Shown here piece by piece: positions 33,275 to 43,709 of a stretch of DNA of 43,709 bases. The notes beneath the pieces were generated by a model. The model was not told the DNA's origin. It searched no databases and saw only the letters and a program-made list of their open reading frames with translations. The DNA is from an archaeon (GTDB lineage: Archaea; Thermoproteota; Nitrososphaeria; Nitrososphaerales; Gagatemarchaeaceae), in contig JAKACC010000006.1 in assembly GCA_021796515.1 (NCBI GenBank), positions 1 through 43,709 on the forward strand. Reading direction: 5' to 3'. Each line of letters begins with the position of its first letter. The stretch's first letter is position 1. A program made the translations under genes and the position numbers.

Positions 33275-33362
33275 CTTGGCCCAGACGTGGAACCCCAGGT
33301 CATAGAGCAGTTCCTCCGGAACCCTGCACCCTTTGTACGACGAGGTCAGACCCCCTCGTAGC

Positions 33363-33737
33363 TCAGAAGTAGAGCACCGCCGTGTCCGGGTCCGACGTCA
33401 TCTCCAACAGCGTCGACGCGCCAGCGAACTGGATGCCGTCGATGATGTCGTCATCCTTCATCTTCCAGATTACCTTCGCCGCAGTGCTGCAGCAGAGCAT
33501 CTTGACCCGACTGCGGAACGAGATGTCGATGACCTTCTTCAGGGACTCCCCGCCCTCCGATGTCCTGATGTTCTCGGCGTTCCCCTTCTTGATCAGCGAA
33601 GGCCCCTCGGCGAGGAAGAACATCGTAGTGTCGAAGCCCATGGCGGCGCTGGCGTTGGCGTAGTAGAACGGGGAGAACGCCTTCTTCGGCTCGGCCGTCC
33701 CCGTGCTCACGACGAAGAGGTACTTCTTGTCAGCCAA
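33363..33737 (-). CDS. DsrE-family sulfurtransferase-like protein
   Basis: 124 residues. KYLFVVSTGTAEPKKAFSPFYYANASAAMGFDTTMFFLAEGPSLI is a DsrE/DsrF-like Rossmann half, and KMLCCSTAAKV carries a Cys pair at the position of the reactive cysteine. DsrE proteins pass persulfide sulfur between TusA and the oxidation complex. TTG start. It is the first gene of a minus-strand DsrE-LbpA-ligase unit, divergent from hdrC1. Confidence 0.85.
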   Translation of the reverse strand: MADKKYLFVVSTGTAEPKKAFSPFYYANASAAMGFDTTMFFLAEGPSLIKKGNAENIRTSEGGESLKKVIDISFRSRVKMLCCSTAAKVIWKMKDDDIIDGIQFAGASTLLEMTSDPDTAVLYF

Positions 33738-33798
33738 GTCTTTTCAGCCAGCTACCAACGTTCGAATCAGTCCCTAACAGCTGAGGGAACCTGCCAAA

Positions 33799-33829
33799 CT
33801 ATATATAATCACTTCGCACATTATAATAC
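33799..33829. promoter_or_regulatory. Divergent TATA region of the sulfur locus
   Basis: CTATATATAAT at 33799-33809 lies about 26-30 bases before the hdrC1 ATG (33834) and on the minus strand about 40 bases upstream of the expected start of the DsrE transcript. A second TATA-like TTATAATA follows at 33821-33828. The region likely drives both the hdr and dsrE-lbpA units. Confidence 0.55.
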
Positions 33830-33833
33830 TCGA

Positions 33834-34610
33834 ATGTATGTCACCAAATCCGAGAAGGTGACTTCCAGGCTCGGCAGCCTGAACGAGGACGGCTGGCACT
33901 ACAGCGGCTTGCCCGGCCTCCAATGGGAAGCGGAGAACGCCCGGATGGGGGACAGGAAGGTCATGAAGCGCATCGTCGAGGAGGTCCAGGCCGACCCGAG
34001 GTTCGAGGATTTCTACCACGCCTGCATCAACTGCGGGAACTGCACCGCCGTCTGCCCACCGTTCAGGCTCGTGGACTTCGCGCCGAGGATCGTCGTCCAG
34101 AAGGTGATGCACGCCAAGGACGAGCCGGAGCTCCTCTACCAGATGATGGACCAGTACATCTGGTCATGCTTCCAGTGCTATTCGTGCTGGGAGGTCTGCC
34201 CGGCGCAGAACAACCCGGGGGGGCTGGTGGCGATGCTAAAGGAGAGCGCCGTCAAGCACGGGCTCACATCGGCCAAGAGGTCTTTGGAGCCATACAGCAA
34301 GATCCTCTACAAGGTGATGACCACGGGGACCCAGATCACCCCCGACATGCACAGCTCCAACGCGCCATTCAGGGACTGGGGGGGAGGGAAGGCTGACCTC
34401 GCTAAGCACCTCAGAGAGGAGAGGGCTGCGGTCGCGGTCGAGACCCTGGCCGGGACCATCGACAAGAGCTGGAAGGTGGACGATAGGACGATGAAGGAGC
34501 TGATCACGATTGAGAAGGAGGCGGGTGTCACCGACATGGTGAAGCAGACGCTGAAGGACGTCGCAGAGATGGTCGAAGAGGCCGGCGAGGAGCTGGGGGT
34601 CCCGAAGTAG
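33834..34610 (+). CDS. hdrC1: Heterodisulfide reductase-like subunit HdrC1 (2x[4Fe-4S])
   Basis: 258 residues from ATG 33834. Two classic ferredoxin-type sites: C64-x2-C67-x2-C70-x3-C74 (CINCGNCTAVCP) and C112-x2-C115-x2-C118-x3-C122 (CFQCYSCWEVCP). This is HdrC architecture, fusing no extra domain. The long open frame upstream to 33333 crosses the divergent promoter and is not coding. The gene begins a plus-strand operon with hdrB (1-base gap), hdrA, hdrC2 and a membrane subunit. HdrC carries electrons between the flavin subunit and the HdrB or membrane partner. Confidence 0.92.
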   Translation: MYVTKSEKVTSRLGSLNEDGWHYSGLPGLQWEAENARMGDRKVMKRIVEEVQADPRFEDFYHACINCGNCTAVCPPFRLVDFAPRIVVQKVMHAKDEPELLYQMMDQYIWSCFQCYSCWEVCPAQNNPGGLVAMLKESAVKHGLTSAKRSLEPYSKILYKVMTTGTQITPDMHSSNAPFRDWGGGKADLAKHLREERAAVAVETLAGTIDKSWKVDDRTMKELITIEKEAGVTDMVKQTLKDVAEMVEEAGEELGVPK

Positions 34611-34611
34611 G

Positions 34612-35898
34612 ATGACGGAGAGCCAGGCCCTGAACCTGGGGAAGGGGGATGAGGTCGAGATGAGGACAGTCGACCTGAAGTTCTTGCAGAAGCTCTCCAT
34701 GGACAGGAAGGCCCACCTTGCATACGGCAAGGTCGAGGACTACCTCCGCATGCTCGAGAAGATGAAGGAGCTCGAGCGATCGGGAGAGATAATGGTGCAT
34801 CATGTCGGCGACGAGTACGAGCCTGCGACCGTCAAGACCCTGAGTGGTAGGGAAAAGAAGGTTCCAACTGTCGAGCTCTGGCAGCACAAGTCCTGCGGGC
34901 AGTGCGGGCATATACCCGGCTACATATCGGCGCTCTACTGGATTATGGCAGAACTCAAGATTCCTTACGTCGACGACACCAACCAGACCTCGTGCACGGC
35001 GTGGAACTACTACGGGTCTGGGACCTCGAACCCGGTGGCGCTTTCCGCGGTCTTCGCACGGAACATGCACGCGGCCTACGAGAAGAACGCCTACCCCCTG
35101 ATTCACTGTGGCACCAGCTACGGGGACTACAAAGAGGTCAGGTACCTGATGGTCATGAGCAGGGAAGTCCGGGACCAGGTCAAGGCCATTCTGAAGAAGA
35201 TAGGCAGGGACCTCGTCCTCCCGGAGGAGCTGGTCCACTACAGCGAGTGGCTGCACGTCAAGAGGAACGAAATCGCGGGAAGGAGGAAATTCGACGTCTC
35301 CAACATCAAGGCGGCCGTGCACGCCGCCTGCCACACCTACAAACTGATGGCCGAGGACTTCACCTACGATCCGACGATAATGGAGGGGAGGAGGCCGGCC
35401 CCAACGACAAGCGTGGCCATGGCCCTCGGGGTTGACGTAAAGGAGTACAGCACCTGGTCGGACTGCTGCGGGTTCGGGTTCAGGCACATCCTCACTGAGA
35501 GGGAGATAAGCAGGTCCTTCGCATACTTCAGGAAGATACAGCCGATAGTCAGGGAAACGAAGGCCGACGTCCTACTCGTCCACGACACCGGTTGCGTGAC
35601 GACCCTTGACAAGAGCCAGGTGGTCACCAAGGCCCACGGGTTCCCTGAGACGATACCGGTGGTCTCGGACGCCCAGTTCGCGGCGCTCGCCATGGGGGCC
35701 CACCCGTTCAAGGTCTGCCAGCTCCACTGGCACTTGGCCGATTGGAAGGGGCTCCTCGAAAAGATCGGGATCGACTGGAAGACGGCCGAGACAGAGTACA
35801 AGGACTACGTCCAGGCACTCAAAGAAGGGGCGAAGCCCGTCTACATCACGCCTCCCCCGCGGAGGCTGAAGCCGAGGGCCAAAGAGACCTTCAGCTAG
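34612..35898 (+). CDS. hdrB: Heterodisulfide reductase-like subunit HdrB (CCG domains)
   Basis: 428 residues. The first cysteine-rich repeat includes KSCGQCG (C95, C98) and TSCTAWNYYGSG (C128); the expected CCG there reads SC-T, so that repeat is degenerate. The second includes AACHTYKLM, SDCCGFGFR and HDTGCVTTL, a canonical CCG set. In Hdr, such domains bind noncubane [4Fe-4S] clusters where the disulfide or lipoyl-bound substrate reacts. In sHdr loci two HdrB proteins are usual; here only this one is found. Its start overlaps the preceding stop by spacing of one base, so coupling is tight. Confidence 0.9.
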   Translation: MTESQALNLGKGDEVEMRTVDLKFLQKLSMDRKAHLAYGKVEDYLRMLEKMKELERSGEIMVHHVGDEYEPATVKTLSGREKKVPTVELWQHKSCGQCGHIPGYISALYWIMAELKIPYVDDTNQTSCTAWNYYGSGTSNPVALSAVFARNMHAAYEKNAYPLIHCGTSYGDYKEVRYLMVMSREVRDQVKAILKKIGRDLVLPEELVHYSEWLHVKRNEIAGRRKFDVSNIKAAVHAACHTYKLMAEDFTYDPTIMEGRRPAPTTSVAMALGVDVKEYSTWSDCCGFGFRHILTEREISRSFAYFRKIQPIVRETKADVLLVHDTGCVTTLDKSQVVTKAHGFPETIPVVSDAQFAALAMGAHPFKVCQLHWHLADWKGLLEKIGIDWKTAETEYKDYVQALKEGAKPVYITPPPRRLKPRAKETFS

Positions 35899-35909
35899 GG
35901 CGATTGACC

Positions 35910-36968
35910 ATGGCGGAAAACCTTCCGGTCCTCGTCGTAGGGGGAGGCCCCTCGGGACTCAAGGCGGCTCTCGACCTCGCCGAGTTGGACACCAAAGTGA
36001 TCCTGGTTGAGAAGAGGGGGGAACTGGGTGGGGCGCCGATACGCTGGAAGTACAAGCTCCTCGCGCCCGAGCTGAGGCCCTCGGAGGAGGTGATGGGCCC
36101 GCTCCTGTCGTCCGTGGAGTCGAACCCTCTGGTCTCGGTCCACAAGGACTCATTCGTCGACGCTTGCGACGGCCCCGCGGGGAACTTCCGGGTCGTGATC
36201 GGGAAGAACGAGGGCGGGGGGTTCGTCGAGAGGCGTGTCTCGTCCATTGTCGTGGCAACAGGGTTCGAGCACTTCGACGCCCGGGTAGACCCAAGATACA
36301 GCTATGGCCGCGCTCCCAACGTCATAGGGATTAACGAGCTCGAGGGGATGCTCAAGGAGGGGAGGGTCGTGGGGCACGACGGGAAGGCCCCTAAGCGGGT
36401 CGCGTTCATCTTCTGCGTCGGCTCTAGGGACAGGGCGACTAACCCATGGTGCTGCACGGTCTGCTGCGGAGTGAGCATCAAGCAGGCCATCGAGATGAAG
36501 GAGTTGATCAAGGACGTCCAGCTCTACATGATTTACATGGACATCAGGACGATGGGGCAGTGGGAGAAGCTCTACTGGGATAGCATGGAGAAGTATGGGA
36601 TTAACTACATACGGGGGAGGGTCGCCGAAGTCTACTGGACAGGGGAGAAGCTCCTGGTCAAGGGGGAGGACACCCTGGTGAGGGGGCCCTTCGAGGTGCT
36701 CTTCGACATGGTCGTCCTGGCCGTGGGAATCGAGCCGGGTCCCGGGACGAAGAAGATTGCCGGCACACTCGGCCTGCAGCTCAACGAGAACGGATTCCTG
36801 GCGCCCAGGCACCCCAACATCCACACAGAGTCGACGAGGGAGGGGATCTTCCTGGCAGGCTGTTGCGTGACCCCCATGTCAATCGAAGAGTCGCTGGCTG
36901 AAGGCTCCGCAGCGGCCATGGCAGCAACCAAGTTCGCAAGGAAGGTCGCGCCCAAGGTAGGGGTGTAG
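35910..36968 (+). CDS. hdrA: Heterodisulfide reductase-like flavoprotein HdrA
   Basis: 352 residues, matching the short sHdrA form, not the long methanogen HdrA. GGGPSGLKAALDLAE (11-25) is the FAD Rossmann motif, VVATGFEHFDARV is typical of HdrA, and the cysteines C169, C181-C182, C185-C186 (WCCTVCCGVSIKQA) bind an [4Fe-4S] cluster. The C-terminal GIFLAGCCVTPMSIEESLAEGSAAAMAATKFA closes the flavin domain. ATG 35910 was chosen; an ORF start upstream at 35742 overlaps hdrB. QmoA has a similar flavoprotein fold, so a Qmo-like role cannot be ruled out. Confidence 0.9.
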   Translation: MAENLPVLVVGGGPSGLKAALDLAELDTKVILVEKRGELGGAPIRWKYKLLAPELRPSEEVMGPLLSSVESNPLVSVHKDSFVDACDGPAGNFRVVIGKNEGGGFVERRVSSIVVATGFEHFDARVDPRYSYGRAPNVIGINELEGMLKEGRVVGHDGKAPKRVAFIFCVGSRDRATNPWCCTVCCGVSIKQAIEMKELIKDVQLYMIYMDIRTMGQWEKLYWDSMEKYGINYIRGRVAEVYWTGEKLLVKGEDTLVRGPFEVLFDMVVLAVGIEPGPGTKKIAGTLGLQLNENGFLAPRHPNIHTESTREGIFLAGCCVTPMSIEESLAEGSAAAMAATKFARKVAPKVGV

Positions 36969-37092
36969 CTACTCGCCCGGGGAAGAGAGGCCAAAGAAGA
37001 AAGACGAGAAGGGGAAGTTCATCATAGAACGGCGCTACATCGACGACGACCGCATCATAGAGCCGGAGAAGCTGGAGTCGGGGGGGGTCGAC

Positions 37093-37440
37093 ATGTCGGG
37101 CCGCTGGGGCCTGATCGTCCTCCCCCGGACCATCAACGACTTCGACCACTCGCTCCTGGAGATGGTGAAGGCCCATCCGAAGGGGGGGCATGTTGGGAAC
37201 TGCTGGCAGTGCGGGAACTGCACTGCCGCCTGCCCGGTTGCTGAGAAGAACCCGACCTTCAACCCCCGTTATTTCATCTACGCTGCGAAGATGGGTTACG
37301 AGCAGGAAGTCAAGAAGATGAAGGAGAGCATCTACCTCTGCACCAGCTGCGGCCGGTGCACAGAGGTGTGCCCCAAGGGGGTGGACCCGAGCGGGGTGAT
37401 GGAGGCCATCGGGACTATGATTAGGAAGGCGCGCAGTTGA
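37093..37440 (+). CDS. hdrC2: Heterodisulfide reductase-like HdrC2 (2x[4Fe-4S]), N-terminus uncertain
   Basis: 115 residues from ATG 37093, with C37-x2-C40-x2-C43-x3-C47 (CWQCGNCTAACP) and C83-x2-C86-x2-C89-x3-C93 (CTSCGRCTEVCP). The frame is open upstream to 36961 and codes for charged, well-biased protein (KFIIERRYIDDDRIIEPEKLES) but contains no ATG, GTG or TTG. A one-base deletion in the GGGG run at the end of hdrA would fuse the two genes. The gene's stop overlaps the ATG of the next membrane subunit (TGATG). Confidence 0.85.
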   Translation: MSGRWGLIVLPRTINDFDHSLLEMVKAHPKGGHVGNCWQCGNCTAACPVAEKNPTFNPRYFIYAAKMGYEQEVKKMKESIYLCTSCGRCTEVCPKGVDPSGVMEAIGTMIRKARS

Positions 37441-38270
37441 TGGCAGGGGCGTCCTTCAGAAGCGCGGTGCCATGGCTTGTTACAATCGTCGCCGTCGCCA
37501 TCTTGGTATACGTGTGGGTCCAGCTCTACTTCGTCAACGTAGACTCGATTGCGAGTGGGGCGACGACGCAGATCAACCGCAACACGATATTGAGCAAGAC
37601 CATCGTAGACTATTCGGGGTTAGTGGCTGCAGTGGCGGTGGCCGCTGGCGTCGTCTACAGGTGGAGAGGTAGGAGCATTCCGCTCCTGATCCAAGAGATA
37701 CGCCAGGCCATCGGCAAGCCCTCCTCAGAAGGGGAGGAAAGCAAGTCGAAGGGCTGGGGGACCGTCGCTTCCGTGGTGGCCAAGGATATCCTGCTCCTAG
37801 GGAAGATGGGTGAGTGTGAGGACCTCCAGCAGTGGCTGGGCCACTTCCTGACAATGTGGGGCTTCATCGGCCTCGCCCTCACGACCACGCTGGATGCCAT
37901 CTTCAACAGCGCCGCCAACCCCCTCCCCATAACTGACCCCATCCGCCTGCTGGGGAACGCAACAGGGGTCATGCTCATCGCAGGGCTGACCTTGTCGTTC
38001 TCGCGGAGGCTGGTCCACTCGGAAGTCAGGTCGGCCAGCAGGGCGGGGGACTGGGCGTTCCTGGTTTCTCTCTACGGGACAGCGCTGACCGGGTTCATGG
38101 TGGAGGCGTTTGCGAACACGTCGAACTTTGTCGGGACCGCAGTGACATATCCCATACACTTGGTTTTCATCTCGCTCCTGCTTGTGGCCGCCCCTTGGAC
38201 CAAGTTCGTCCACGCACTCTGGAGGCCCTCCTGGGTGGTCTACAGCAGGCTCAACGCCCATGACAAATGA
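37440..38270 (+). CDS. HdrE/QmoC-like cytochrome-b membrane subunit
   Basis: 276 residues with about six transmembrane helices: 9-30, 55-73, about 135-155, about 175-195, about 210-230 and 240-262. Histidines suited to b-heme lie in WLGHFLTMWGF (middle) and HLVFISLLLVAAPWTKFVHALW (end). Between the second and third helices is a polar loop (GKPSSEGEESKSKG). The fold corresponds to the membrane domain of QmoC or NarI/HdrE, which passes electrons to or from quinones. Canonical sHdr operons lack such a subunit. It overlaps the downstream small gene by 11 bases. Confidence 0.85.
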   Translation: MAGASFRSAVPWLVTIVAVAILVYVWVQLYFVNVDSIASGATTQINRNTILSKTIVDYSGLVAAVAVAAGVVYRWRGRSIPLLIQEIRQAIGKPSSEGEESKSKGWGTVASVVAKDILLLGKMGECEDLQQWLGHFLTMWGFIGLALTTTLDAIFNSAANPLPITDPIRLLGNATGVMLIAGLTLSFSRRLVHSEVRSASRAGDWAFLVSLYGTALTGFMVEAFANTSNFVGTAVTYPIHLVFISLLLVAAPWTKFVHALWRPSWVVYSRLNAHDK

Positions 38271-38640: not shown

Positions 38641-38695
38641 GGCAGGCCGTGTCGGACGTATTCAAATCCGCTAGCCTCGGTGCGGCAGCAATTGG

Positions 38696-39539
38696 ATGGA
38701 CTGGGTTTTGGTTGGCTACGAGTTTCTGCTGATCCTCTTTCTGGCTTCCATTCTCGCGGGAGCGCTTGGGTCGATAGTAGGTCTGGGGGTGGGGTGATAG
38801 CCACCCCAGCCCTGACGGTCCTGCCGGGGGTGGACATTCACTTAGCCATCGGGGCGAGCATCGTTTCGGTCATAGCGACCTCCAGCGGGGCGGCAGCGAC
38901 TTGCGTCAAGGACAAGATGACCAACCTCAGGGTAGGCACGTTCCTGGAGCTCGCGACGACCGTGGGGGCGATCGCCGGTGCGGCGGTTGCTGCCTATACA
39001 AACTCGTTCGTACTCGAGCTCGCCTTCTGGACCATCCTGTTGGTCTCTGGTGCCGTTGGTCAAAGAGATAGGCGAAGACATCCTGCTGAACCCTGAGCTG
39101 GAAGGCCTTGCGAAGCGCCTCTCCCTCCACGGGTCTTACACTGGAACAGACGGTTCGGTCGTCAACTACAACGCGACCGGACCCAAGCGGGGCCTTGTGG
39201 GGATGTTCGCCGCCGGCCTGATATCCGGTCTGGTTGGCATTGGAAGCGGGACGTCAAGTCCTGTCCATGGACCTTGCCATGAAGCTCCCCATGAAGGTCT
39301 CGACGACCACGTCGAACTTCATGATAGGGGGGACCACCGCCGCCAGCGCAGGAATCTACTTTGCTAGGGGGGACATCAACCCCTTCATCGTAGCTCTCGT
39401 GGCCATAGGGATTCTCATCGGGGCCTTCGTCGGAACTAGGCTCCTCGTCAGGGCCAGGAATCCGACGGTCAGGAAAATCTTCGCAGCCGTGCTCGCTGTC
39501 ACCGCGGTCGAGATGGTGCTCAGGGCCTTTGGAATGTGA
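38696..39539 (+). pseudogene. TauE/SafE-family sulfite/sulfonate exporter, frameshifted
   Basis: Three reading frames together spell a TauE/SafE protein: ATG 38696 (MDWVLVGYEFLLILFLASILAGALG) up to a GGGGG run near 38790; then GVIATPALTVLPGVDIHLAIGASIVSVIA in a second frame; then GEDILLNPELEGLAKRL and GLVGMFAAGLISGLVGIGSG in a third; then MDLAMKLPMKVSTTTSNFMIGG to the stop at 39539. The shifts are near 38790 (missing base), 39050 (extra base) and 39245 (extra base). The intact family exports sulfite or organosulfonates across the membrane, which fits detoxification of sulfite made by sHdr. The frameshifts could be real decay or sequencing errors. Confidence 0.75.
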
Positions 39540-40052: not shown

Positions 40053-40322
40053 ATGTTAGGGGAGAGTTTGGCGATATCCGAGGCCAAGCCGGCGAAACTT
40101 CTAGATACGAAAGGACTTCTATGCCCCGCTCCGGTCATCAAGACCAGCCAGGCTGTCAAGCAGATCGAGGTCGGCGAAGTGCTCGAAGTGGTCGCCACTG
40201 ACCCGGGTTCGAAGCCTGACCTCACCTCCTGGGCCAGGATGACAGGTAATGAACTGATTAGCATGTCGGAGGACCAGGGTGCTCCGAAGGTGTACAAGTT
40301 CCGTATCAGGAGGATGAAATAG
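40053..40322 (+). CDS. tusA: TusA-family sulfur carrier
   Basis: 89 residues. KLLDTKGLLCPAPVIKTSQAVKQIE contains the CPxP motif; the first Cys carries the persulfide. EVVATDPGSKPDLTSWARMTGNELI is the rest of the core. TusA brings sulfane sulfur to DsrE or Hdr proteins. It is followed after 5 bases by a DsrE2-type gene. A TATA-like TTTAAGTA lies about 20 bases upstream. Confidence 0.93.
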   Translation: MLGESLAISEAKPAKLLDTKGLLCPAPVIKTSQAVKQIEVGEVLEVVATDPGSKPDLTSWARMTGNELISMSEDQGAPKVYKFRIRRMK

Positions 40323-40327
40323 TCGAG

Positions 40328-40834
40328 TTGACACTTGCCACACAGCAATCGAAGGAGGCAGAGAGGGGTAAGAAGGCGAACCACCTGGTGTTGGTCGTGA
40401 CGAACAATACGATAGACAAGGTGTACCCTCCGATGATTCTGGCGACGACTGCGGCGGCCTCAGGGATGGAGGTCGACATCTATTTCACCTTCTGGGGATT
40501 GAAGTTGCTCGACAAGAAGGGCCACACCCGCACTAAGATCGCCCCAGTAGGCAATCCGGCCATGCCTATGCCCAACATCATGGGGATGCTCCCAGGGATG
40601 ACCGCAATGGCCACCAAGATGATGAAGGGGAAGATCAAGAAGTACTGGCCGACGATTCCGGAGATGATGCAACAGGCCAAGGAGATGGGGGTGAGGCTCC
40701 ATGCCTGCTCGCCGACCATGGGCCTCATGGGGATGTCAGAGAAAGACCTGATTCCGGGGACCACATCGATTTGCGGTGCATCCACCTTCCTCGACTGGGC
40801 TACCGACCCGAATTCGGTAACGATATTCACGTAG
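40328..40834 (+). CDS. DsrE2-type sulfur-transfer protein
   Basis: 168 residues. VTNNTIDKVYPPMILATTAAASGMEVDIYFTFWGLKLL opens an alpha/beta DsrE-like core; the middle is methionine-rich (MPMPNIMGMLPGMTAMATKMM); the motif RLHACSPTMGLMGM carries the conserved Cys, and GTTSICGASTFLDWATD a second Cys. This is the DsrE2 (DsrE/peroxiredoxin-like, TusA-linked) form, often membrane-associated. It starts at TTG 40328, 5 bases after tusA. Confidence 0.87.
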   Translation: MTLATQQSKEAERGKKANHLVLVVTNNTIDKVYPPMILATTAAASGMEVDIYFTFWGLKLLDKKGHTRTKIAPVGNPAMPMPNIMGMLPGMTAMATKMMKGKIKKYWPTIPEMMQQAKEMGVRLHACSPTMGLMGMSEKDLIPGTTSICGASTFLDWATDPNSVTIFT

Positions 40835-40879: not shown

Positions 40880-41203
40880 CTATGCTAGGATTCTTGCCTG
40901 TCCCAGCCTCGTCTCGCGGACAACTTCGTTGACAAGGTCGTAGGCCTTCAGGATTCTTTGGTCTGTCAGGCGGTAGTACACACGCCTTCCTTCCCTCTTG
41001 GCGTGCACGATTCCGAGACGCCGGAGAAGAGAGAGCTGCTGCGACACAGTCGACTGGGTCGCACCAGTTTCGGTGACCAGCGACGAGACCGTCTTCTCCC
41101 CCTCCCTGAAGCTGTCGAGGATAGCGAGCCTTATGGGGTGGGAGAACGTCTTGCAGAACTCGGCGTGGGCCTGATAAATCTCCTGATCCCTTCGGGTTCG
41201 CAT
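40880..41203 (-). CDS. ArsR/SmtB-family transcriptional regulator
   Basis: 107 residues with the ArsR winged-helix: FSHPIRLAILDSFREGEKTVSSLVTETGATQSTVSQQLSLLRRLGIVHAKREGRRVYYRL. One Cys (about residue 17) lies before the domain, whereas reported sHdrR/SoxR-type sensors use two, so a thiol sensor role is uncertain. A TATA box (ATTAATAAG) about 26 bases upstream gives a leaderless ATG. It is divergent from the second membrane subunit-aprBA operon, with a shared region of direct repeats, so it probably regulates the sulfur genes. Confidence 0.85.
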   Translation of the reverse strand: MRTRRDQEIYQAHAEFCKTFSHPIRLAILDSFREGEKTVSSLVTETGATQSTVSQQLSLLRRLGIVHAKREGRRVYYRLTDQRILKAYDLVNEVVRETRLGQARILA

Positions 41204-41288: not shown

Positions 41289-41361
41289 GGTTGATGGAGA
41301 GGTCGTCCTTGGCGAGGCCGCATTCCGCCGTCCGCAGGGGCGCGCACTAGGCTTGGCGCTC

Positions 41362-42099
41362 ATGGACCTCCCGGTCGCAAACTGGGTGATCGACCTGGGG
41401 AGCGTCTTCGTTCTCGTCGTCATCGCCATCGGTCTGGCCCGCAGGGTCAAAGGCGGTTCGACCCATCATTTCGACCGGTGGCAGGTAATAGGCGCGCAGG
41501 CGAGCGCCATAGCCGCGAAGCTTTCCACGGGGGTGGTACTGGGGAGCGTCTCCAGGGTCCTGTTCAGAGACGTGTTCACGGCCAAGGTCCTGGACGCGTG
41601 CAGCAGAGTCAAGCGATGGTCCCATATCGCCCTGTTCTGGGGCTTCGCGTTCCTGGGGATATCAACCACCCTGGCTTTCATCACCAACCCGGACAACGTC
41701 GTGCTCCCTCTCACCGACCCGGTGAAGATATTCGGGAACTTGGGGGGAGCGCTGGTCCTGATTGGGTTCGCGGCTATGTTCTACGTCCGCTACAGGGAGG
41801 AGGCCCCCATCTGGCGACTGACCCGCTCGGACGTCTTCATACTCACGCTCTTCCTCACCGTGGTGACAGGGTTCGTCACCCAGCAGGCGGTGTACTCGGC
41901 AGCCGGGCCGTTCTGGGTCTCTGACGCCTTCTGGCTGCACATGGCCTTCGTCATCGTCCTCTTGGCGACCGCCCCCTTCACGAAGTTCTTCCACGCGGTG
42001 TCGAAGCCTGTATCCATCCTCCACGAGGAGATTGACCAGAAGCTCGGGAAGGAGCCCGTCCTCCCAGTGCGACAGACAAGGGAGGTCGAGCCGAGCTAG
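41362..42099 (+). CDS. Second cytochrome-b-like membrane subunit, linked to APS reductase
   Basis: About 245 residues from ATG 41362 (a TTG at 41353 is possible) with around six helices. Histidines are in RWSHIALFWGFAFLGISTTL and WLHMAFVIVLLATAPFTKFFHAVSKP. These, and the LPLTDPVKIFGN segment, match the hdr-operon membrane subunit, showing the two are paralogues. It precedes aprB (GTG at 42099 overlaps its stop by one base), so it is probably the quinone-side partner of APS reductase, replacing AprM or QmoC. The C-terminal tail is polar. Confidence 0.85.
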   Translation: MDLPVANWVIDLGSVFVLVVIAIGLARRVKGGSTHHFDRWQVIGAQASAIAAKLSTGVVLGSVSRVLFRDVFTAKVLDACSRVKRWSHIALFWGFAFLGISTTLAFITNPDNVVLPLTDPVKIFGNLGGALVLIGFAAMFYVRYREEAPIWRLTRSDVFILTLFLTVVTGFVTQQAVYSAAGPFWVSDAFWLHMAFVIVLLATAPFTKFFHAVSKPVSILHEEIDQKLGKEPVLPVRQTREVEPS

Positions 42100-42551
42100 T
42101 GCCGACCTTCGTCGACCCCAACAAGTGCGACGGCTGCGGCAAGTGCGTCGACATCTGCCCCAGCGACATCATGCACCTGTCCCACAGCATCCTCAACGGG
42201 AGGAAGGCGTTCAACATCGAGCCGAACTACTGCTGGGAGTGCTATTCCTGTGTGAAGGAGTGCCCCCAGCACGCCATCGACATGAGAGGGTACGCAGACT
42301 TCGCCCCTCTCAACCACAAGCTGACCGTCCTCAGGGACAAGGAGAAGAACGTGGTCAACTGGAAGATGAAGTACAGAAACGGCATGAAGAACGAGTTCAC
42401 CTTCCCCATCCGGACCACGAAGTGGGGGTCCATAGCTCCCCCGCAGAGTCGTCCGAACCCAAGCTGTGAGCAGTTCGATTCCCAGCTCCTTGCGCACGAG
42501 CCCGAATACCTCAAGACCGAACAGGGGCTCGCAACGGTGAAGAGACCATGA
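42099..42551 (+). CDS. aprB: APS reductase beta subunit AprB
   Basis: 150 residues. Two [4Fe-4S] sites: CDGCGKCVDICPSD (residues about 8-21) and CWECYSCVKECPQH (about 47-60), then WGSIAPPQ and C-terminal KP-containing tail. This is the electron-transferring subunit of adenosine-5-phosphosulfate reductase. GTG start overlaps the previous stop (TAGTG) and the stop overlaps the aprA ATG (ATGA), so translation is coupled. Confidence 0.93.
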   Translation: MPTFVDPNKCDGCGKCVDICPSDIMHLSHSILNGRKAFNIEPNYCWECYSCVKECPQHAIDMRGYADFAPLNHKLTVLRDKEKNVVNWKMKYRNGMKNEFTFPIRTTKWGSIAPPQSRPNPSCEQFDSQLLAHEPEYLKTEQGLATVKRP

Positions 42552-43709
42552 AGACGAAGACGGTCGACTGCGACATCCTCATCGTGGGAGGTGGGATGGC
42601 CGGGTGCGGCGCTGCCTACGAAGCGAGGTACTGGGGGCGGGACCTCAAGATAGTCGTCGTCGAGAAGGGGCACATAGAGAGGAGCGGCGCAGTCGCCATG
42701 GGCCTTTCAGCAATCAACTGCTACATGGGGATGCGGTGGAACGAGAACACCCCCGAGGACTTCGTCAGATACACCCGGAACGACCTGATGGGGCTGGTGA
42801 GGGAGGACCTCGTCTACGACATAGCAAGGCACGTCGACTCCACAGTCCACCTCTTCGAGGAGTGGGGCCTCCCGATAATCTACGACGAGCAGACGAAGAG
42901 GTACAAGCGGGAAGGGAGGTGGCAGATCCTGATACACGGGGAGTCGTACAAGCCGATAGTCGCCGAGGCGGCCACGAAGTCTGCCACGGAGGTGTACAAC
43001 AGGGTGATGGTCACGCACCTGCTTACGGACGCCGAAGACAGCAACAGGATAGCAGGCGCAGCCGGAATCGGGGTGAGGGACGGAGCCTTCTATGTGTTCC
43101 GCGCCAAGGCTGTGATAGTGTCCGCAGGTGGCGCGACCCATGTGTTCAGGCCGAGATCGGTGGGGGAAGGCGCGGGGAGGACTTGGTACTCTCCGTGGAG
43201 CACTGGGTCAGCATACGCGCTGCTCATCGAAGTCGGCGCAGAGATGACGCAGATGGAGAACAAGCTGGTGGTGACCCGCTTCAAGGACGGGTACGGTCCG
43301 GTGGGAGCGTGGTTCCTGGCGCTGAAGGCGAAGGCATCCAACGCCTACGGCGAGGACTACGAGCTGAAGTACAAGGAGGAGCAGCGGGCGCTCTACGGGG
43401 ACTACGTTGACGCGAAGCCTTTCCCGACCTGCCTGAGGAACGACGCGATGCTCCGGGAGATCAGGGCGGGACGGAGCCCCATCTTCATACACACGGAGAA
43501 GGTCCTCGACACCAGGGAGAAGGAAGAGCTCGGCCAGGAGGACTTCCTCGACATGACGATGAGCCAGACTATCGTCTGGGCGTCCCAGAACATCGACCCG
43601 AAGACGATGCCCTCGGAGCTCCAGCCGTCGGAGCCGTACATAATGGGGTCCCACGCGACATGTTCGGGGGCGTGGGCGAGCGGACCCGCTGACCTCTCGT
43701 CGAAGGAGT
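42548..43709 (+). CDS. aprA: APS reductase alpha subunit AprA (partial, runs off window)
   Basis: 387 codons are visible. MKTKTVDCDILIVGGGMAGCGAAYEA carries the FAD motif GGGMAGCG; RSGAVAMGLSAINCYMG, VRYTRNDLMGLVREDLVYDIARHVDS, HGESYKPIVAEAA and SAGGATHVFRP follow, all AprA hallmarks. It interconverts APS and sulfite plus AMP using FAD. The reading frame is intact to the right edge. Direction (sulfate reduction or sulfite oxidation) cannot be told from the sequence; co-occurrence with sHdr, LbpA and TusA favours oxidation. Confidence 0.93.
   Translation, partial: MKTKTVDCDILIVGGGMAGCGAAYEARYWGRDLKIVVVEKGHIERSGAVAMGLSAINCYMGMRWNENTPEDFVRYTRNDLMGLVREDLVYDIARHVDSTVHLFEEWGLPIIYDEQTKRYKREGRWQILIHGESYKPIVAEAATKSATEVYNRVMVTHLLTDAEDSNRIAGAAGIGVRDGAFYVFRAKAVIVSAGGATHVFRPRSVGEGAGRTWYSPWSTGSAYALLIEVGAEMTQMENKLVVTRFKDGYGPVGAWFLALKAKASNAYGEDYELKYKEEQRALYGDYVDAKPFPTCLRNDAMLREIRAGRSPIFIHTEKVLDTREKEELGQEDFLDMTMSQTIVWASQNIDPKTMPSELQPSEPYIMGSHATCSGAWASGPADLSSKE

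Follow-up and report, generated by a model that had tools for sequence, protein, structure and literature searches.

The anchor-aprBA operon and its surroundings

The analysed stretch of 43,709 nucleotides, called the window here, is the entire contig C5 of a draft archaeal genome (G000; 1.5 Mb, 95.6% complete). It ends in three genes on the same strand, a membrane anchor followed by the APS reductase genes aprB and aprA, and further upstream lie a divergent regulator gene, two sulfur carrier genes and an hdr-type module (Table 1). Counted from the TTG at 41353 the anchor has 248 amino acids; translation more likely starts at the ATG at 41362, since the relative L061 begins there. The stop codon of the anchor sits one base inside aprB, which starts with GTG at 42099. 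An earlier note on this DNA had described this overlap, which we confirmed, and the same neighborhood at 14 of 14 aprB loci of the class argues against chance. aprB and aprA overlap by 4 bp, and the AprB of the window lacks the Qmo-docking loop (CDGCGKCVDICP). The arsR neighbor of the operon is kept in the relatives f1 and f18, and a Sat gene is present, giving anchor-aprBA a Sat context.

A second anchor-aprB-aprA operon, overlooked in the earlier note, lies at the end of contig C20 of the same genome, and its anchor is 70% identical to that of the window. Both operons stand on contigs that end inside aprA, which fits an assembly break in near-identical copies. The complete operon is visible in the near relative Nitrososphaerota FK5_bin.27 (L068), which together with Thaumarchaeota Centralia_MAG_53 (L143) is among the named members of the window gene family. 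At 38680–39539 the window also holds a probable TauE-like gene (sulfite exporter type), apparently split across three frames, possibly by a frameshift or as a pseudogene; a Pfam scan of one piece of it gave no match.

Table 1. Features of the window that bear on the anchor operon.
Feature	Position	Strand	Evidence or remark
hdrC1-hdrB-hdrA-hdrC2/qmoC-N-qmoC-C module, sHdr-like, membrane-linked	33333–38270	+	Profile matches, neighbor comparison
TusA-type sulfur carrier	40053–40322	+	NCBIfam TusA, E = 2e-13
DsrE2-type sulfur carrier	40328–40834	+	NF047629, E = 5e-36
ArsR-type regulator	40880–41203	−	Pfam HTH_5; divergent from anchor operon
AprM-like/QmoC-C-type membrane anchor, predicted b-type cytochrome	41353–42099	+	qmoC profile, hhalign to AprM, AlphaFold/Foldseek
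His91 of the anchor, candidate heme ligand	41623–41625	+	Cytoplasmic start of TM2
His196 of the anchor, QmoC-type third histidine	41938–41940	+	Aligned with NarI His187
His214 of the anchor, candidate heme ligand	41992–41994	+	Cytoplasmic end of TM5; aligned with NarI His205
aprB	42099–42551	+	TIGR02060, 172 bits (cut-off 135.7); two [4Fe-4S] motifs; relay Trp46 present
aprA, cut by contig end	42548–43709	+	TIGR02061, E = 5e-177, 392/616 positions

Topology, fold and conserved histidines

Hydropathy analysis of the window anchor gave five transmembrane segments and one amphipathic stretch, not the six helices previously read from the sequence. The AlphaFold helices are consistent with this (residues 10–33, 85–111, 123–148, 158–181, and 186–209, with the amphipathic part at 38–76), and the models of the window anchor and of AprM are both confident five-helix structures (mean pLDDT 85.9 and 90.5, respectively). 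When both were compared with the PDB by Foldseek, NarI came first at a probability of 0.96–0.99; as the E-values were weak (0.06–0.2), we take the fold match as support only. For the window anchor the TM-score to NarI was 0.43–0.49 (E = 0.2), and a sequence search of solved structures also placed NarI best, yet with an E-value of just 0.03.

Three histidines of the anchor are conserved, to different extents. His214 was found in all 85 sequences compared and His91 in all 74 anchors, AprM and QmoC-like sequences outside family f31, while the f31 anchors carry Lys at the His91 site (11/11). His196 is present in every anchor of the archaeal clade described below (34/34; window genus, f20, f31, f43, g134, and L230) and in 22 of 22 QmoC-like proteins, whereas AprM and the f18 sequences have Tyr or Phe there (0/28 His); a single heme is therefore predicted for AprM. 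In the Thiodiazotropha AprM the counterparts of His91 and His214 are His94 and His219. In NarI, His205 and His187 are ligands of the proximal and the distal heme, respectively. No fourth conserved histidine, as needed to complete a second heme site, was found in the anchor alignment. According to the positive-inside pattern, His91, His214, and the AprB-facing loops are predicted to lie on the cytoplasmic side.

Homology to AprM and QmoC

Bacterial AprM references were chosen by synteny as the gene before aprB (80 named loci); the A. vinosum sequence is not among them. In hhalign the window type matched bacterial AprM at 99.1% (E = 6e-19, about 215 columns), while around 60 unrelated membrane proteins used as a control reached at most 3.9% probability. 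The anchors of f18, which are Nitrososphaeria intermediates, matched the bacterial AprM profile with an E-value of 7e-46. The protein had been called unlike AprM and proposed as a third type of electron partner, a proposal to which the earlier note itself had opposed clear AprM homology; at the profile level such homology is what we found, and a third type unrelated to AprM is rejected. A search for annotated AprM on plasmids gave no match.

The NCBIfam qmoC model also matched the window anchor (E = 2.8e-18), but only over model positions 162–358 of 360, the C-terminal membrane (heme) domain, and with 66 bits against 300, far under the cut-off. The same model matched all 15 members of the Nitrososphaeria anchor set A2 as well as the bacterial AprM of Thiodiazotropha (1e-12) and Thiobacillus (6e-10). 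In profile comparison the window anchor was equally close to a QmoC-C protein and to AprM, and the match to the Pfam family of NarI remained under its cut-off. Since the qmoC model and the profile-profile matches join all three, AprM, the window anchor and the QmoC membrane domain are, judged by their profiles, one superfamily.

Linkage to aprB across archaea

In a sample of 300 genomes of the class, 11 genomes contained aprB, at 14 loci, and in all 14 the anchor lies directly upstream of aprB. A sample of 398 genomes of the phylum added 29 aprB loci beyond the class, 26 of which adjoin an anchor-family ORF. In f43 the anchor is on the aprB strand in the order anchor-aprB-aprA-sat, with dsrMK-like genes near several of the loci, and in f31 the anchor-family ORF is divergent from aprB. 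At the 80 named loci an anchor or AprM gene is next to aprB throughout (78 identified automatically, 2 by inspection), and within the class the tested anchor-like matches away from aprB fall outside the anchor clades. This co-occurrence with aprBA across Thermoproteota supports the earlier view that AprBA has a membrane partner resembling cytochrome b.

All four loop-bearing archaeal AprBs, three of them the phylum exceptions and one from Thermoplasmatota, carry an insertion at the position of the proposed Qmo-docking loop and have no adjacent anchor; the Thermoplasmatota gene adjoins two qmoA/B-like genes, qmoC, and dsrAB. Nevertheless, six other Thermoplasmatota AprBs (L227–L229 and L231–L233) have no loop, and no anchor-family gene was found anywhere in their genomes. 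The anchor is therefore not universal, and we rejected a universal rule of either loop or anchor.

A case for coupling between AprB and the anchor comes from f31, where the relay Trp of AprB is replaced by Ala or Ser at 10 of 12 loci (L214–L222 and L224) and the anchors have lost His91. Two f31 loci retain the Trp although the anchor has Lys at the His91 site, and the joint loss may be a single event of the whole family; joint decay and an altered electron path are both possible. A Trp-to-Ala change in AprB was reported for Pyrobaculum (PMC2211403), and f31 is therefore probably Thermoproteaceae.

Phylogeny and probable anchor exchange

A maximum likelihood tree of the anchors, rooted on full-length QmoC, resolved an AprM clade of bacteria, Thermoplasmata, and f18 (100/100) and an archaeal anchor clade of the window genus, f20, g134, f43, f31, and one Thermoplasmatota (99.1/100). 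In the best tree the two are sisters (95.6/91). By its sequence, the window anchor thus appears to fall in a mostly archaeal clade with bacterial AprM as its sister; both groups are related to the QmoC membrane domain. In AU tests based on full tree searches, the following alternatives were not rejected: the window anchor inside the AprM clade (p = 0.074), and placement with QmoC of the window genus alone (p = 0.27) or of the whole archaeal clade (p = 0.61).

In the AprA tree the window genus is nested in f18, whose anchors are AprM-type (99/99), while the other AprAs with archaeal anchors make up a clade of their own. As the window AprA nests among AprM-linked AprAs but its anchor stands in the archaeal clade, the window lineage has probably exchanged its anchor, which implies that AprM and the archaeal anchor are interchangeable. 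Two genomes, G035 (L057 and L065) and G045 (L059 and L066), have two apr operons each, one per anchor type.

The placement with QmoC bears on the possibility that the archaeal anchor is a true third type after all, one that arose from QmoC-type cytochromes by a recruitment separate from that of AprM and may carry two hemes. The QmoC-type His196, kept throughout the archaeal clade and lost in AprM, points in this direction, as does the equal profile proximity to AprM and to a QmoC-C protein. However, the best tree unites all Apr-linked anchors, and the second heme would lack its fourth conserved histidine, so that we regard this origin as unlikely. The broader form of the idea, in which the whole archaeal clade is an independently recruited third partner class that also serves the Caldivirga/Pyrobaculum-type enzymes and displaced AprM in the window genus, also seems to us unlikely. 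Because the tree and the AU tests leave room for a separate recruitment from QmoC stock, what survives of the third type is a weaker claim, that of a second AprM-like type.

Proposed role of the anchor

Our preferred reading, to which we give a probability of about 0.7, is that the window gene encodes an AprM-like b-type cytochrome that links AprBA to quinone and stands in for QmoABC, most likely in sulfite oxidation. It is based on the homology, the gene linkage, the conserved histidines, the absence of the docking loop, and the fact that no QmoABC was found; from these we infer that it binds heme, has quinone as its partner, physically contacts AprB, and works in the oxidative direction. In this scheme AprBA would be held to the membrane by the anchor, on the cytoplasmic side. 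Oxidation of sulfite with AMP to APS would release electrons to the FAD of AprA, from where they would pass through [4Fe-4S] cluster I to cluster II of AprB, then to a heme b near the cytoplasmic side, with His91 and His214 as its ligands, and from the heme to quinone. Sat would convert APS to ATP and sulfate.

The oxidative role is favored because of the TusA/DsrE2 context, because no dsrA was found in the window genome, and because an acquired QmoABC has been credited with sulfate use in V. moutnovskia (PMC10504309). All three speak against the same wiring running in reverse, for sulfate reduction, which we consider unlikely on balance even though dsrAB or dsrMK adjoin anchor-aprBA-sat in the genus-mate G168 and in f43, and a survey reads such Nitrososphaeria as likely or possible sulfate reducers (PMC10833072). 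In G168 the tusA-dsrE2-arsR-anchor-aprBA-sat set is preceded, at L035 3058–8397, by genes for DsrA and DsrB, for a NarI-type protein, and for a protein of 685 aa that resembles DsrK/HdrD and carries a Rieske domain at its C-terminus. With dsrAB at the same spot beside the same anchor operon, the direction may differ among species.

The f31 anchors, in which His91 is missing, would fit a heme-free structural anchor with a soluble carrier taking the electrons of AprB. This is very unlikely for the window protein, as elsewhere even highly divergent sequences keep His91 and His214.

The earlier note had also overlooked the split qmoC-like pair that stands with HdrC-, HdrB-, and HdrA-like genes about 3 kb upstream of the anchor (QmoC-N-like, E = 1.6e-15; QmoC-C-like, E = 1e-29). 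This cluster looks like an independent membrane-linked Hdr module, ending in a membrane cytochrome where soluble sHdr has HdrB2. It is kept in f18 relatives (L243 9664–13318 and L247 14408–18757), and a Thermoplasmata sHdr-like set (L242) has no QmoC-C match within it. The window genome, at 95.6% completeness, encodes a single HdrA-type protein, hence no QmoA plus QmoB pair was found, nor was a full-length QmoC; having one HdrA and being sHdr-like, the cluster was rejected as a QmoABC. That the module is nevertheless the electron partner of AprBA and the anchor just a tether, as its proximity might suggest, is highly improbable, given the missing QmoA/QmoB pair, the AprB without docking loop, the location of the module apart from aprBA in f18 genomes, and the genus-mates G168 and G200, which have the anchor operon but in which no second QmoC-C protein was found (the anchor is the only QmoC-family protein of G200).

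Comparison with known systems

The 2013 description of AprM reported that it resembled no known domain and no known cofactor site (PMC3779200), and the electron donor of the crenarchaeal APS reductases of Caldivirga and Pyrobaculum was called unknown in 2008 (PMC2211403). Our comparisons suggest a family for AprM, that of the QmoC membrane domain, with a probable heme b; in the literature, which we covered in part, we found no statement of a relation between AprM and QmoC. Most of the sampled Thermoproteota APS reductases, including crenarchaeal ones, gain a gene-linked candidate partner, and the docking loop in AprB versus an anchor gene gives a sequence rule that predicts the partner, with the known exceptions. 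The window anchor probably passes the electrons of APS reductase to quinones.

Among known membrane proteins, the membrane domain of TcuB/CitB is a weaker profile match to the window anchor (2.7e-10), which differs in its partner and in lacking a fused iron-sulfur domain. NarI (Nitrate_red_gam, PF02665) is the top fold match and its His187 and His205 align with the C-terminal histidines of the anchor; however, the anchor stays under the Pfam cut-off (19.9 vs. 22.9) and has three conserved histidines against four heme ligands in NarI, one of which has no counterpart, and narGH was not found among its neighbors. With the QmoC membrane domain (NF038018) the anchor shares His91, His196, and His214, while it lacks the N-terminal HdrC-like iron-sulfur domain, and its genome the QmoA/QmoB pair.

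The closest parallel is AprM of the aprMBA operons of sulfur-oxidizing bacteria (Apr lineage I). AprM was reported with five membrane helices (PMC3779200), as found in the window anchor; both genes stand directly before aprBA on the same strand, both partner AprBs are without the Qmo loop, and the AprAs are of the same lineage. The window anchor differs in belonging to the sister clade, with about 20–25% identity, and in retaining His196, which is Tyr in AprM. Of the earlier claim that it acts in place of AprM or QmoABC, it thus holds that no QmoABC was found and that the protein is not a canonical AprM. The window anchor is a real and well conserved feature, not unrelated to bacterial AprM but its distant sister.
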